Positions 3,200-55,700 of a DNA stretch of 64,000 nt are shown piece by piece. Below the pieces are notes generated by a model. That model was not told the DNA's origin and searched no databases. It saw only the letters and a program-made list of their open reading frames with translations. Origin of the DNA: Eubacteriales bacterium (GTDB taxonomy: Bacteria > Bacillota > Clostridia > Acetivibrionales > JANLFN01); the NCBI GenBank assembly GCA_024655885.1, contig JANLFN010000002.1, forward strand, positions 1-64,000, written 5' to 3'. The translations under genes and the position numbers were made by a program. Within the stretch, counting starts at the first letter, position 1; each line of letters begins with the position of its first letter.

Positions 3200-3856
3200 T
3201 TAACCTTTCTTATCCTCCCCTGTCTGCTTTGCAATACCGTACATCAGTACATCAATCATCGTATCAATTTCCTTACCCATGTCGTTTACTTCTATCTTGC
3301 CTTCGAATATCTTTCTCTGTGCCACTAGCGCAGCCACATTGGCCATGATAGCCCTCAGCAGCATTACATGGTCGATATCATCCCTCATCATGCCCTTTTG
3401 AACCATCTCTCTGTGAAATTTTTCCGCTATTGTAAGGGCCCTCACTACAATATTCTGATACAGGGCTTCCCTCACATCCTCATGATACAGGGCTTCCGTC
3501 AATAGGACCCTGACCATGGGGAAAAGGGAATCCGCCAGCTTCAAACGGTCAACAAGAATTTGTTTCAGTACTGTTCTCAGGTCTTTTTCTTCAAGTCTTG
3601 TCATAATTTTTTCCAGGCTGTCGATTACAAGCCTGCCGCTCAATATGTTCACTGCGTGGATTAGTATTCCCCTCAGAATATCCTTTTTCGTTTTGAAATA
3701 TCTGAAAATCGTGCCTTCGGCAACCCCCGCACTTTTTGCTATTTCACTGGTGGTAGATGCGCTGTATCCTTTTTCAGAAAAGATTTTTATGGCGGCTTCC
3801 AGGATTCTTCTCTCCTTTTCCGGGATGTCCTCACCGGATAAGCCCCAAATGTCCAT
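3200..3856 (-). CDS. TetR/AcrR family transcriptional regulator
   Basis: One-component repressor of 218 residues. The N-terminal helix-turn-helix (RRILEAAIKIFSEKGY to EGTIFRYFKTKKDIL) is typical TetR_N, followed by an all-helical ligand domain. The ATG at 3856 lies 6 nt after a perfect AAGGAGG; an ATG 6 nt upstream is too close to that site. The first gene of the efflux operon, it is likely to repress itself and the transporter through the palindrome at 3871-3893. Inducer unknown. Confidence 0.9.
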   Translation of the reverse strand: MDIWGLSGEDIPEKERRILEAAIKIFSEKGYSASTTSEIAKSAGVAEGTIFRYFKTKKDILRGILIHAVNILSGRLVIDSLEKIMTRLEEKDLRTVLKQILVDRLKLADSLFPMVRVLLTEALYHEDVREALYQNIVVRALTIAEKFHREMVQKGMMRDDIDHVMLLRAIMANVAALVAQRKIFEGKIEVNDMGKEIDTMIDVLMYGIAKQTGEDKKG

Positions 3857-3870
3857 ACATATCCTCCTTG

Positions 3871-3893
3871 ATAATGAGTGATTACTCACTTAT
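3871..3893. promoter_or_regulatory. putative TetR operator
   Basis: Inverted repeat TGAGT-N4-ACTCA (3875-3888) with flanking ATAA/TTAT symmetry, directly upstream of the regulator's ribosome site. Position and symmetry suit autorepression by the adjacent TetR protein. No binding data; inferred from layout. Confidence 0.6.
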
Positions 3894-4014
3894 TATAATC
3901 CCTGCCATATTTTTATTCAATAGGTAAATATAATTTTTGCATATTACCGGAGAAAATTCTTTAAACTATACAGTAAAGCAATGGATACCGATCCAACAAT
4001 ATAGGAGTGCTCTC

Positions 4015-4392
4015 TTGAAAAAAACAAACGCAACCATTAAGAAATATATAAAGTACATTTTTATCGGCCTTGTCACCGGTATGACAAACGGACTTTTCGG
4101 GTCAGGCGGAGGCACCATAGTAGTTCCGGCAATGACCCTGCTGCTGGGGGTGGAGGAGCATAGGGCACATGCGACGGCTATAGCCGTAATCCTGCCTTTA
4201 ACCGTTGTCAGTGCCTTTTTTTATATTGCAAACCATTTTGTAAACTGGGAACTCACATGGAAAACCATGCTGGGAGGTATGGCGGGCGGTTACGCAGGGG
4301 CAAAGCTTTTAAATCTATGCCCCACCGCCCTGTTACGAAAAATTTTTGCGGTTTTCATGATATTTGCTTCCTTTAGGATGCTGATAGGATAA
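4015..4392 (+). CDS. half-size TauE/SafE permease, first half
   Basis: Small membrane protein of 125 residues resembling one half of a TauE/SafE (DUF81) anion exporter. It has about four membrane segments and the glycine-rich FGSGGGTIVVP motif that begins a TauE repeat. I chose the TTG at 4015 because AGGAG lies 7 nt upstream; the ATG at 3937 lacks one. The usual family protein is about 250 residues with two such repeats. Here the second repeat is a separate gene 27 bp downstream, so the two products probably form a heterodimer. Substrate unknown (sulfite, sulfonates and other organic anions are known for the family). Confidence 0.8.
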   Translation: MKKTNATIKKYIKYIFIGLVTGMTNGLFGSGGGTIVVPAMTLLLGVEEHRAHATAIAVILPLTVVSAFFYIANHFVNWELTWKTMLGGMAGGYAGAKLLNLCPTALLRKIFAVFMIFASFRMLIG

Positions 4393-26099: not shown

Positions 26100-28508
26100 C
26101 TATTTCACCACGATATTGACCAGCTTTCCAGGCACTCCAATAACCGTTACTACCGTCTTTCCCTCCACAAGCGCCTGAACTTTCGGATCCTTCACCGCTT
26201 CCTCTTCCGTCTTCTGCTTGTCAAGCCCTGAAGGCAGGAAAATTTTGTCCCGGACCTTGCCGTTTATCTGTATGGCGATCTCTATCCGTTCCTCTACCGT
26301 TTTACTTTCATCCCATTCAGGCCATACCTGGCTGTATACTCTGCCGGGGTACCCCTGAATGGACCAGAGCTCTTCCGTTATATGGGGGGCTACGGGATTC
26401 AGCAGGATCAGGAAGGTTTTAAATTCCGCCCTGTTTACGGCTCCTTTGCCGTTAAAGTCGTTTAACAGCGCCATGAGGCTTGCAATGGCCGTATTGAATT
26501 TCAGGTTTTCATAGTCTTCACTGACCTTTTTTATTGTCCTGTGCATATTGATTTCCAAATCCTTGGAATAGGTTTCCCCATCCACAAGAATGCTTTGAAG
26601 CCTCCAAACCCGGTCCAGGAACCTCCTGCACCCTCTTACTCCGCTTTGAGACCAGGAGACGCTCTTTTCAAAGTCCCCGATAAACATTTCGTATGTCCTC
26701 AGGGTATCTGCGCCCAGTTCATCTACGATATCATCAGGATTCACCACATTTCCCCTGGATTTGGACATCTTTTCATTGTTCTCGCCCAGAATCATCCCGT
26801 GGGATGTCCTTTTCCGGTATGGTTCAGGCGTGGGAACCACTCCGCAGTCATACAGGAACTTATGCCAGAACCTGGAATACAGCAGGTGCAGTGTCGTATG
26901 CTCCATTCCGCCGTTATACCAGTCTACCGGTAGCCAGTACTCCAGATTTTCCTTGCTTGCGAGCTGTTTGTCGTTATGGGGGTCGGTATAGCGAAGAAAA
27001 TACCATGAAGAGCCTGCCCACTGAGGCATGGTATCCGTTTCTCTTGTTCCTCTCCCTCCACATTTCGGGCAGGTGGTCTCCACCCAGTCGGTCATATTGG
27101 CCAAGGGTGACTCCCCGGTGTCGGTGGGCTCATAGCTTTCCACTTCGGGCAACAGCAAAGGAAGCTCTTCTTCCGGCAGCGGCACCCATCCGCATTTTTC
27201 ACAGTAAACCAGAGGTATGGGTTCACCCCAGTATCTCTGCCTTGAAAACACCCAGTCTCTAAGCTTGTAATTGACCTTTCTCTGTCCAAGGCCCTTCTCC
27301 TCAAGCCAGTCACTGATCTTTTCCTTTGCTTCCTTGACGGTCAGGCCGCTGATAAATCCCGAGTTAACCACAATACCGTTCTCGGTGTCGGTAAAGGCTT
27401 CTTTTTCTATATCCCCGCCGCTCACAACCTCGATTACGGGCAGGTTGAACTTCCTCGCGAACTCCCAGTCTCTTGTGTCATGGCCCGGCACAGCCATAAT
27501 GGCGCCTGTACCGTAAGACATTAAAACATAGTCCGACACCCATACAGGTATCCTCTTTCCGTTTACAGGGTTAACGGCAGTGATGCCGCCCAACGGCACT
27601 CCTGTTTTTTCCTTGGCAATTTCGGTTCTCTCAAAGTCCGATTTTCTTGCAGCTTTTTCCCTGTACTCCAACACCTCGCCAATATTTTCAATTTTTTCCT
27701 TTAAGCTGTCGATGAGGGGATGCTCGGGCGAAAGAACCATATAGGTCACCCCAAACAGGGTATCGGGACGGGTTGTAAAAATCCTTATTTTGCTTCCTCC
27801 GGTAATCTCAAAGTCCACTTCCATGCCTTCCGAACGGCCGATCCAATTCTTTTGCTGAATTTTTACCCTTTCTATGTAGTTCACCGTATCCAGGTCATTG
27901 ATCAGCCTCTCCGCATATTCAGTAATTTTAAGCATCCACTGGTTTTTAACCTTTCTGACTACCTCTCCTCCACAGCGTTCACATACGCCGTTAACCACCT
28001 CTTCATTGGCGAGTCCCACCTTGCAGTCGGTACACCAGTTAATGGCCGCCTCTTTTTTATAGGCAAGGCCTTTTTCAAAAAGTTTGAGGAAAATCCACTG
28101 GGTCCATTTATAGTAATTGGGGTCTGTCGTATTTATTTCCCTCGACCAGTCAAAGGACAGGCCCAGGGCCTGCAGTTGAGCTTTAAACCTCGCTATATTC
28201 CTTTCTGTCACAATTCTGGGATGGATTTTATTTTTAATGGCATAATTTTCGGTGGGAAGCCCGAAAGCGTCCCACCCTATAGGATACAACACATTATAGC
28301 CCTGCATCCTTCTTTTCCTTGAAACTATATCTAAAGCCGTATAAGGTCTGGGGTGGCCTACATGAAGCCCCTGTCCCGAAGGGTAGGGAAACTCGATCAA
28401 CGCGTAGTATTTGGGCTTTGTCTTGTCTTCCGAAGCATGGAAGGCCCCTTCCCTCTCCCAGATATCCTGCCATTTTTTTTCAATTTGTTTCGGATTATAC
28501 TCGGTCAT
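26100..28508 (-). CDS. leuS: leucyl-tRNA synthetase
   Basis: Class I synthetase, 802 residues. HIGH-equivalent GLHVGHPR near residue 45, zinc-type cysteines CTDC...CERC, an editing insertion, and KMSKS in [12 protein letters not shown]-terminal anticodon-binding domain complete. ATG at 28508 follows GAGG. Unlike thrS in this window it has no T-box upstream. Last gene of nadD-yqeK-lytR_C-rsfS-leuS. Confidence 0.96.
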
Positions 28509-48934: not shown

Positions 48935-49522
48935 CTATTTTTTATGCGTTATTTCATAGGTAAAAATTATAGCCTCGGCTATAGACTTCATGGACATCCT
49001 TGAATCCATGCTCTTTTTTCTCATTCGTTCGTACGCCTCGTTTTCACTGATCTTATCCCGTTCCATTAAAATCCACTTTGCCCTTTCCACAACCTTCCGC
49101 GTTTCATAATTCTCAGTCATTTCCTTGAGCTTCCTGTTTAAGTCGAATACCCTTTTATAATTTATCATGGCCATTTCTACCGTATGGAGGAGCAGTTCCT
49201 TGCTCAACGGTTTGGGGCAAAGGGACAGCACCTTGGATTTTTCCACCAGGCTTGTAAGCTCCACATCTTTATAATCCCCAATGACAATGCAGGCGCAAAG
49301 CATTTCATCATCCACTGTTTCTATGGTCTGTCTCAGTTCCCGGAGCTGCAGGCCCAGGTCCACTACGACAAAATCGGGATTGCAGCTCCTGATCAGCTTC
49401 ATAAGCGACAGAGAATCATAACAATTTCCCAAAAACATATAACCGTACGGGTTCAGCATGTTTCTTATCGTTATTTGCAAAGGGTTTTCAGCCGTTGCTA
49501 CAACATATTTTTCCCCAGCCAT
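48935..49522 (-). CDS. ANTAR-domain response regulator
   Basis: RNA-binding antiterminator of 195 residues. N-terminal receiver-like domain (VVATAENPLQITIRNML, phospho-acceptor-like Asp in FVVVDLGLQ) with a degenerate acidic pocket. A coiled-coil linker leads to a C-terminal ANTAR domain (VVERAKWILMERDKISENEAYERMRKKS). Such proteins bind paired hexaloop hairpins and prevent termination. It is divergent from amt-glnK, suggesting nitrogen control, as for NasT/NitR-like regulators. No cognate histidine kinase is adjacent. Confidence 0.9.
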   Translation of the reverse strand: MAGEKYVVATAENPLQITIRNMLNPYGYMFLGNCYDSLSLMKLIRSCNPDFVVVDLGLQLRELRQTIETVDDEMLCACIVIGDYKDVELTSLVEKSKVLSLCPKPLSKELLLHTVEMAMINYKRVFDLNRKLKEMTENYETRKVVERAKWILMERDKISENEAYERMRKKSMDSRMSMKSIAEAIIFTYEITHKK

Positions 49523-49999: not shown

Positions 50000-50028
50000 T
50001 TGCATTTTTGCCACACAGATGTTAAAAT
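50000..50028 (+). promoter_or_regulatory. amt promoter
   Basis: TTGCAT (50000-50005), 17-bp spacer, TAAAAT (50023-50028). Transcription would begin near 50035, just before the leader terminator. Confidence 0.6.
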
Positions 50029-50034
50029 AAAAAT

Positions 50035-50069
50035 AATTACAATGGTGAAGTTAAGTAAAGGCGCTTATC
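50035..50069 (+). promoter_or_regulatory. candidate ANTAR RNA target in the amt leader
   Basis: Two adjacent potential hairpins with six-base loops: AATGGT (50041-50046, weak stem) and AAAGGC (50057-50062, stem GTTAAGT/GCTTATC with one mismatch). Both loops have A at position 1 and G at position 4, the feature of ANTAR targets. The second overlaps the 5' arm of the following terminator, as an antiterminator should. Confidence 0.5.
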
Positions 50070-50106
50070 AGGAGTTGTTATTCTCTTGGTAATGCGCTTT
50101 TCTTTT
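50057..50106 (+). terminator. leader terminator ahead of amt
   Basis: Stem AAAGGCGC-TTA-TCAGGAG pairing with CTCTTGG-TAA-TGCGCTTTT, followed by CTTTTCT. It lies about 100 bp before the amt start, so it must be read through for expression; probable attenuator. Confidence 0.7.
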
Positions 50107-50206
50107 CTCGTTGAATCCCGCCGGAGTGGTTCAAAGAATTCTTTTTCCCTGATTATCAATGAGGATAATTCAAATGAATCAAAAATGAATGGTGAGGTGT
50201 ATTTTT

Positions 50207-51544
50207 ATGAAAAAGAAAACATTTTCAATTCTGTTGATTTTATTCGTATTGGTATGTATTCCTGTTGCGGCATTTGCAGAAGGCACAACCGCAATTGATT
50301 CCGGAGACACAACCTTTTCAATTATTTCTTCGGCACTGGTATTTTTGATGACACCCGGCCTTGCCCTGTTTTATGGCGGGATGGTAAGAAAAAAGAATGT
50401 TTTAAACACCATGCTGAACTCATTTATAATCATGGCTCTCATTTCGGTCCAATGGGTACTTATAGGATATACACTTGCGTTTGGCCCGGATCACGGCGGT
50501 GTTTTAGGCGGCTTGAACTGGCTGGGATTAAACGGTGTGGGAGGCGACCCGAATCCCGATTATGCGGGTACAATTCCCCATGCGGCTTTTGCCATGTACC
50601 AACTGATGTTTGCCATCATCACTCCGGCTCTCATCACGGGATCATTTGCTGAAAGAATGCGGTTCCCTGCATTTGTGGTTTTCATTGTTCTCTGGGCAAC
50701 ATTTGTCTATGATCCGCTGGCACACTGGGTTTGGGGTGTAGGCGGATGGCTTAGATCCCTGGGAGCACTTGATTTTGCCGGAGGTACCGTCGTGCATATC
50801 AGCTCGGGCATTGCAGGTTTGACCGCCGCTCTTGTCCTGGGGGAACGCAAAGGCTACAAGACCATCCCCATGATACCCCATAATATTCCGTTTGTGCTGC
50901 TGGGAGCCGCCCTGCTCTGGTTCGGCTGGTTCGGCTTCAATGCGGGAAGTGCGCTGGCAGCCAACGGCCTGGCTTTAAACGCTTTTGCCACCACAAACAC
51001 GGCTGCTGCCGCCGCTGTGCTGTCATGGGTCATTGTTGAATGGATACACCACGGAAAACCCACACTTCTGGGTGCCGCTACCGGTGCGGTTGTGGGACTT
51101 GTTGCAATCACTCCGGCGGCAGGCTTCGTAAATGTCATGGCCTCCATCCTTATCGGTTTTATGGTAAGCCCTCTCTGCTACTTTGCAATAAGTGTGGTTA
51201 AACCCAAACTGGGGTATGACGATTCCCTTGACGCCTTCGGATGTCACGGCATCGGCGGTATCTGGGGAGCTCTGGCCACAGGTTTATTCGCCACCAAGTC
51301 CGTTAATCCCGCCGGCGCAGACGGACTCTTTTACGGAAATCCGCACCAATTGCTGGTACAGCTGATAGCTGTGGTTGTCACATTAGCATTCTCAAGCATC
51401 GTTACCTTTATTATCTTAAAAATAGTATCCCTTTTCACAAGACTGCGTGCAAGTGAAGCGGAAGAGGATGACGGCCTGGATGTAACTCTGCACGGTGAAG
51501 ACGCATACCCGGATTTCACTTCAGACCAGAGTATCGCGTTATAA
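50207..51544 (+). CDS. amt: ammonium transporter
   Basis: Amt/AmtB channel, 445 residues. Signal peptide ending near AFAEG, then eleven membrane helices. Family motifs ALVFLMTPGLALFYGGMVRKKN, DFAGGTVVHISSGIAGL and the twin-His helix region FGCHGIGGIWGAL. A cytoplasmic acidic tail ends the protein. ATG at 50207 follows GAGGTG by 7 nt. Followed by glnK after 28 bp, the standard Amt-PII pair. Confidence 0.96.
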   Translation: MKKKTFSILLILFVLVCIPVAAFAEGTTAIDSGDTTFSIISSALVFLMTPGLALFYGGMVRKKNVLNTMLNSFIIMALISVQWVLIGYTLAFGPDHGGVLGGLNWLGLNGVGGDPNPDYAGTIPHAAFAMYQLMFAIITPALITGSFAERMRFPAFVVFIVLWATFVYDPLAHWVWGVGGWLRSLGALDFAGGTVVHISSGIAGLTAALVLGERKGYKTIPMIPHNIPFVLLGAALLWFGWFGFNAGSALAANGLALNAFATTNTAAAAAVLSWVIVEWIHHGKPTLLGAATGAVVGLVAITPAAGFVNVMASILIGFMVSPLCYFAISVVKPKLGYDDSLDAFGCHGIGGIWGALATGLFATKSVNPAGADGLFYGNPHQLLVQLIAVVVTLAFSSIVTFIILKIVSLFTRLRASEAEEDDGLDVTLHGEDAYPDFTSDQSIAL

Positions 51545-51572: not shown

Positions 51573-51911
51573 ATGAAAAAAATAGAAGCGATTATACGCC
51601 CGGGAAAACTGGAGGATATAAAGGAATCCCTTAACAAGTACAATGTCCATGGCTTGACCATAAGCCAGGTGATGGGATGCGGACTGCAAAAAGGCAGGAA
51701 GGAAATCTTCAGAGGCACGGAAATTACGCTGAACCTGCTTCCTAAAATTAAAATTGAAATCGTTGTCAAGGATGACTTTGTGGATGAAATCATAAAACTA
51801 ATAGTAAATGAGGCCAAAACAGGTGAAGTAGGTGACGGGAAAATATTTGTCTACAACGTGGAAGACGCCATCAGGATAAGAACCGGCGAGCAAGGGGAAG
51901 CGGCAGTATAA
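51573..51911 (+). CDS. glnK: PII signal protein
   Basis: Nitrogen sensor of 112 residues that binds ATP/ADP and 2-oxoglutarate and gates Amt. Motifs KKIEAIIRPGKLEDIKESL, KIEIVVKDDFVDE and TGEVGDGKIFVYNVEDAIRIRTGE in outline. In the T-loop, Tyr51 (uridylylation site) is replaced by Ile and Tyr46 by Phe (KEIFRGTEI). This PII therefore cannot be modified at the classical site and should act by ligand binding alone. Same transcript as amt. Confidence 0.95.
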   Translation: MKKIEAIIRPGKLEDIKESLNKYNVHGLTISQVMGCGLQKGRKEIFRGTEITLNLLPKIKIEIVVKDDFVDEIIKLIVNEAKTGEVGDGKIFVYNVEDAIRIRTGEQGEAAV

Positions 51912-51934: not shown

Positions 51935-51976
51935 AAACCGGTCTGTAAAAAATTTTTATAGACCGGTTTAAATTTT
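51935..51976. terminator. bidirectional terminator after glnK
   Basis: Stem AAACCGGTCT / AGACCGGTTT with an A/T-rich extension and T tract. Serves glnK and probably the convergent gene at 51979. Confidence 0.85.
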
Positions 51977-55390: not shown

Positions 55391-55700
55391 CCCAATTAAA
55401 AAACTCTTTCATCCCCTTGTAGGGACGAAAGAGCCTTATTCCGCGGTACCACCCTAATTGACGTTTCGAAACGCCATCTCAGCCAATGCGAATCACATTG
55501 CTCCCCGATAACGCAGGGCTGCGTCTTACTCTATTTTGGAACCCCTTGGGCCGCACTGCCGGTAATTCCAATTTCTCAAGAAGAAGCTCCAGGGCTGCTT
55601 TCTATATAATCCTTTGTTAGACTCGCACCATCCTCTAACTCTCTTCAAAAGGGCTTATATATACTCTTCCCTCTCACAGCTTTTGCTTATCGAATTATAA
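55391..55700 (-). promoter_or_regulatory. T-box riboswitch, probable alanine (specifier GCA)
   Basis: Antiterminator core GGGTGGTACCGCGG is complementary to 55442-55455. It precedes a terminator GGCTCTTTCGTCCC...GGGGATGAAAGAG plus TTTTTT. Aligning the specifier side with the thrS leader in this window (GAAA-ACC-G-CC against GAAA-GCA-G-CC) gives GCA at 55598-55596. An AGC (Ser) reading one base earlier is the alternative. Confidence 0.85.

Follow-up and report, generated by a model that had tools for sequence, protein, structure and literature searches.

A conserved hexaloop and terminator leader ahead of an amt–P-II operon as a probable target of ANTAR-type antitermination

The window (i.e., the whole stretch of 64,000 nucleotides that was analyzed) contains a leader situated between a divergently oriented gene for an ANTAR protein and an operon encoding an ammonium transporter (Amt) and a P-II signal protein (Table 1). 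The start codon of the ANTAR gene, which a preliminary description had placed about 500 bp away, is 513 bp from position 50035. The amt start codon was assigned from a Shine-Dalgarno sequence at 50191-50199. The same description had confined the regulatory element to 50035-50106; the element runs on through P3 and P4 (50111-50170), two more hairpins with six-base loops that a hexaloop scan of orthologous leaders revealed 3' of T1 and that had been missed. Elsewhere in the window, a T-box leader is present at 55418-55686 on the minus strand (Rfam RF00230, E 7e-28).

Table 1. Features of the amt–P-II locus (positions are those of the window; loops in square brackets).
Feature	Position	Strand	Basis or remark
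ANTAR protein gene	48935..49522	-	195 aa; degenerate receiver and ANTAR domain; PF03861, E 3e-20
amt promoter	50000..50028	+	arrangement common to orthologous leaders
P1, weak hexaloop hairpin taattac[AATGGT]gaagtta, at the predicted RNA 5' end	50034..50053	+	spacing in relatives
P2, hexaloop hairpin taagt[AAAGGC]gctta, candidate antiterminator	50052..50067	+	RNAalifold in 8 leaders; covarying outer pair
T1, intrinsic terminator with U tract	50057..50106	+	dG -22.5 kcal/mol, z -6.4
P3, hairpin ttgaatccc[GCCGGA]gtggttcaa, closing C-G pair then mismatch	50111..50134	+	G4 in 12/12 amt leaders
P4, hairpin gattatc[AATGAG]gataatt	50151..50170	+	A1 and G4 in 12/12 amt leaders
amt, ammonium transporter	50207..51544	+	Pfam PF00909, E 3e-130; TIGR00836
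P-II (GlnK-type) signal protein gene	51573..51911	+	Pfam PF00543, E 5e-31
Terminator 3' of the amt–P-II operon	51935..51969	+	consensus scan

The amt promoter combines a -35 box (TTGCAT, 50000-50005), a 17-nt spacer, and an extended (TG) -10 box (TAAAAT, 50023-50028), and the orthologous leaders display the same arrangement, TTGCA[T/A]-17-TATAAT. Because this is the conserved promoter, the amt RNA is predicted to start near 50035, right at P1. Another candidate returned by a consensus promoter scan, TTGCCA-18-AATAAT at 50008-50037, was set aside because it does not coincide with the promoter that relatives conserve. The pattern TTGCAT-16/18-TATAAT occurs at 19 sites in the same genome, including those of glnA and the second P-II gene; unrelated genes are also among them, which rules out a clean nitrogen regulon defined by this pattern. 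A -35 box of the form TTGCA[T/A], rather than TTGACA, is common to the promoters of ANTAR-linked genes (window 50000-50028; L160, L156, and L003 ~645-690), and in this genome it also precedes argC- and argG-like genes as well as unrelated genes.

Folding of the leader yielded an intrinsic terminator between the promoter and amt, in agreement with the preliminary description. The stem of T1 comprises 18 pairs (50057-50101) and is followed by a U tract reaching ~50106; none of 200 shuffled sequences was as good. A simple consensus-rule terminator scan of the window did not list T1 because its stem is bulged. The hairpin with hexaloop AAAGGC that had been described over the 5' arm of the terminator was likewise recovered as P2, with the loop at 50057-50062, A at loop position 1 and G at position 4 (A1 and G4), a U-G closing pair, and a dG of -1.2 to -2.0 when folded alone. 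For transcripts growing from 50035, P2 was part of the minimum free energy (MFE) structure from ~50070 to ~50090, and T1 replaced it from 50096; this exchange has the geometry of an antiterminator and a terminator. Forcing P2 to persist once the U tract is complete carried a cost of ~14 kcal/mol (-10.7 versus -24.7), and therefore the leader would be expected to terminate when left without help. Counting both strands, the window has 61 terminator-like sites; at 2 of them an A1/G4 hexaloop hairpin overlaps the 5' arm, namely the amt leader and a site at 27579 that lies antisense inside leuS and was dismissed as a chance occurrence.

The upstream hairpin P1 had been put forward as a second, weaker hexaloop, AATGGT. 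Its A1/G4 letters and its position in relatives uphold that view, but not its stability as a hairpin: the stem contains an A-A mismatch and has a folding energy of +1.4 kcal/mol alone. The P1 stem directly adjoins that of P2 or shares 2 nt with it, leaving no linker. When 13 leaders were anchored on P2 and offsets of 6 to 29 were scored, 8 had an A1/G4 hexamer at a distance of exactly 10 nt on the 5' side of the P2 loop, and no other offset exceeded 4. P1 is missing or altered in some relatives, with no counterpart in leaders L010 (where the promoter abuts P2), L011, and L013. A second leader in genome G016 has a well-formed version, TGTAC[AATGTA]GTGCA, directly abutting ATAAGC[AAAGGT]GCTTAT over a terminator. 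Because of the fixed 10-nt spacing and this well-formed version, P1 is probably real but weak, perhaps an optional site; in the window itself nothing sets it apart except the loop letters, together with the spacing in relatives.

Among 12 orthologous amt leaders of one order, P2 is kept in 11, with G4 in all 11 and A1 in 8; the remaining letters of its loop are variable. RNAalifold applied to eight aligned orthologous leaders returned P2, P3, and P4 independently. In this alignment 97.9% of cells pair, compared to 32-48% when the partners are slid, and at four pairs, located in P2 and P3, both partners have changed. A covariance model trained on the eight leaders recovered all of them and detected, outside the training set, amt leaders in G010 (E 2e-14), G033 (7e-9), G017 (6e-5), and G026 (0.01), along with a P-II leader in the sister-genus genome G001 (E 1e-6), where the divergent ANTAR gene faces a P-II gene alone and P1 has T at loop position 1. 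The second G016 leader, which precedes a 714-aa gene, matched with E 0.017; its P1, P2, and terminator are well formed (L139, G016 C213, ~3820-4100, minus strand). A class-wide search with the model gave only weak matches beyond the order. One of these, in the distant genome G230 (E 0.044), lies before amt and has the classical form of two hexaloops, ATTAC[AGGGTT]GTAAT and GAAGT[AAAGAC]GCTTC, over a terminator. A1/G4 hexaloops lie on 15 of the 24 terminators preceding amt in the order (0/13 in shuffled leaders) and on 7/39 in more distant named genomes, with examples in Desulfosporosinus nitroreducens, Megasphaera, a Veillonellaceae, and others. In some Clostridium-like genomes (L026 and L027), two units stand in tandem 5' of amt, and each joins one A1/G4 hexaloop to a terminator of its own: first CAGC[AATGAG]GCTG, then CAC[AATGGC]GTG.

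The hairpins beyond the terminator have the general forms GAATC-C-C[NNNGNN]G-Y-GATTC (P3) and ATTATC[ANNGNN]GATAAT (P4). Besides the invariant G4, the P3 loop has A or G at position 1, and the remaining positions of the P4 loop are variable. Compensatory changes occur among the P3 stems; the P4 stem hardly varies in sequence and, being too invariant to test, shows no covariation. L017 has a P3 stem of only 3 bp and no recognizable P2, and L019 has a P4 stem of 4 bp. A C-G pair closes both P3 and P4 and, in most leaders, P1. When the downstream part of the leader was folded as a consensus, no conserved sequestration of the Shine-Dalgarno sequence by P3 or P4 emerged, and inspection by eye found no second terminator over P4. 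The P4 pattern yielded no regulon, its three other sites in the same genome all being inside open reading frames. In the P-II-only leader of G001, P3 and P4 have decayed and P1, P2, and the terminator are kept, a single case that ties P3 and P4 to amt, not to the attenuator. The loop letters suggest that P3 and P4 are ANTAR sites. A role in antitermination at T1 is unlikely because they are located after the terminator; most likely, they would be further ANTAR-binding hairpins acting on the amt message itself.

The divergent ANTAR protein aligns with EutV over nearly its full length (PDB 6wsh/6ww6, E 5e-23). The EutV residues that contact RNA are identical at R142, K143, K149, E160, Y164 (which in EutV stacks on loop G4), R168, M172, and R175, and changed at K147 (R), N173 (D), and R177 (S). 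The receiver retains its acceptor Asp and the Lys, and a Pfam search of the protein gave no receiver match. Because the acidic pair (T-A) and the Ser/Thr switch (G) are not retained, the protein is without the complete phosphorylation site of the EutV type and its control by phosphorylation is doubtful. Two further ANTAR genes are present in the genome; one follows glnA, and the other precedes a second P-II–amt pair. The divergent gene lies beside amt in seven leader-bearing genomes (68-77% identity) and in G010, and its product is probably the reader of the amt leader.

The leaders of the other ANTAR-linked genes also carry hexaloops. That of the glnA–ANTAR operon in the same genome has AGGAC[ATTGGC]GTTCT over a terminator. 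Loops in the second P-II leader keep G4 but begin with a pyrimidine (CAAGCA and TGTGAC), a pattern that recurs in relatives; TGTGAC, TGAGAC, CAGGAC, and TTAGAC lie over terminators in the second P-II–amt leaders (L004 5667-5960, C14; L032, L033, L036, and L018), possibly reflecting a separate ANTAR specificity. The second ANTAR gene has G4 hexaloops over a terminator in its own leader (L004 4600-4800; L032, L033, and L036), for example AAAGC[AATGAT]GCTTT in L036, which suggests autoregulation.

We consider it likely, judging from these sequences, that the amt–P-II operon is under ANTAR-type antitermination at P2/T1, with P3 and P4 as further ANTAR-binding hairpins. The original reading of the locus, an ANTAR-controlled attenuator in the amt–glnK leader, remains the best one given the conserved P2 over T1 and the divergent ANTAR gene in most genomes. 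Transcription would start near 50035 and by default stop as T1 forms. An active ANTAR dimer, probably that of the divergent gene and presumably responding to a nitrogen signal, would bind the P2 hexaloop, possibly recruited through P1, and hold the P2 stem so that T1 is deprived of its 5' arm; RNA polymerase would then read into amt and the P-II gene. Since the receiver is degenerate, a ligand or a partner protein, rather than phosphorylation, is suggested as the activator. P3 and P4 would be transcribed only after read-through and, on the amt message, might hold or titrate the ANTAR protein, for example, or affect translation or stability. More tentatively, and with slightly less than even confidence, the leader can be viewed as a two-stage device in which P2 (with P1) passes the terminator and P3/P4 rebind the ANTAR protein for message control or titration feedback.

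The identity of the reader is the point at which a different account comes closest. The same attenuator might be read by the glnA-linked ANTAR paralogue (C23 type) or by both paralogues: genomes G016 and G029 keep P2, P3, and P4 in the amt leader, although the glnA-linked type is the sole ANTAR protein detected in them, and the loop pattern recurs in the glnA leader. We regard this as rather unlikely, as the divergent ANTAR–amt layout is kept in most other genomes and the divergent gene could be lost from the assemblies of G016 (92% complete) and G029 (96%). An ordinary constitutive leader terminator, or an attenuator without ANTAR (e.g., a riboswitch or ribosome-mediated), would make the hexaloops a coincidence. 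Terminators commonly stand 5' of operons, the P1 hairpin is weak, and no Rfam family matches the amt leader; the loop pattern, however, is conserved across genera and occurs on amt-leader terminators of the order at a frequency that shuffled leaders do not reproduce, the leader adjoins an ANTAR gene, and neither a leader peptide nor a further structured domain was noticed from the promoter to the terminator. This explanation is very improbable.

For P3 and P4 alone, one may ask whether they are DNA operators (GAATC-N10-GATTC and TTATC-N6-GATAA) for a DNA-binding regulator rather than RNA hairpins. Both are palindromic as DNA, the stem sequence of P4 is nearly invariant, and the MFE structure of the whole window leader lacks P3 and P4 as drawn. 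Their centers, on the other hand, are asymmetric and conserved at the letters of P2 (G4 in both, A1 in P4), and the compensatory changes in P3 argue for pairing in RNA, which leaves the operator explanation improbable. With ANTAR-type antitermination as the preferred reading, the amt leader would give the ANTAR proteins of a clostridial order a concrete target in ammonium uptake, and a conserved one. P2 sites whose P1 is doubtful or absent are relevant to the minimal ANTAR target proposed in 2022, a single hexaloop, and P3 and P4 pose the testable question of whether ANTAR proteins also act on the message after antitermination; the two-stage device, if true, would place an ANTAR target 3' of the terminator and thereby go beyond the attenuator model.

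The core of the amt-leader attenuator is already known. The covariance survey of Ramesh et al. 2012 (PMC3369931), as described in its main text, is a direct precedent that found ANTAR targets 5' of genes for ammonium transporters, P-II, and glutamate/glutamine synthase, i.e., the same genes and the same kind of element. Only dual hairpins overlapped by a terminator qualified in that survey, the linker being free to vary; its main-text passages covered here describe nothing like P3 and P4, which are new relative to them. The nitR/glnA antiterminator of Clostridium acetobutylicum, as related in PMC4676874, resembles the present case in that antitermination was proposed in clostridial ammonium assimilation, but it acts at glnA with an antisense RNA, whereas the target here is amt–P-II. 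A mechanistic likeness exists to the EutV dual-hexaloop antiterminators of the eut operon (Enterococcus faecalis; Ramesh 2012, PMC3369931, and Walshe 2022, PMC8934654), in which the stem of a G4 (mostly A1) hexaloop overlaps an intrinsic terminator; the ANTAR protein here has the same RNA-contact residues. The eut linkers are reported as 5-12 nt, whereas the weak P1 is joined to P2 without a linker. With the eutP linker cut to 3 nt, induction fell strongly, and the eutP closing pairs were sequence-sensitive (PMC3369931). By this analogy, the abutting P1 and P2 stems and the U-G closure of P2 would count against a eut-like antitermination model. Unlike the situation with EutV, the receiver here is degenerate and no cognate kinase was identified, and in contrast to eut the amt leader carries two extra hexaloop hairpins after its terminator.
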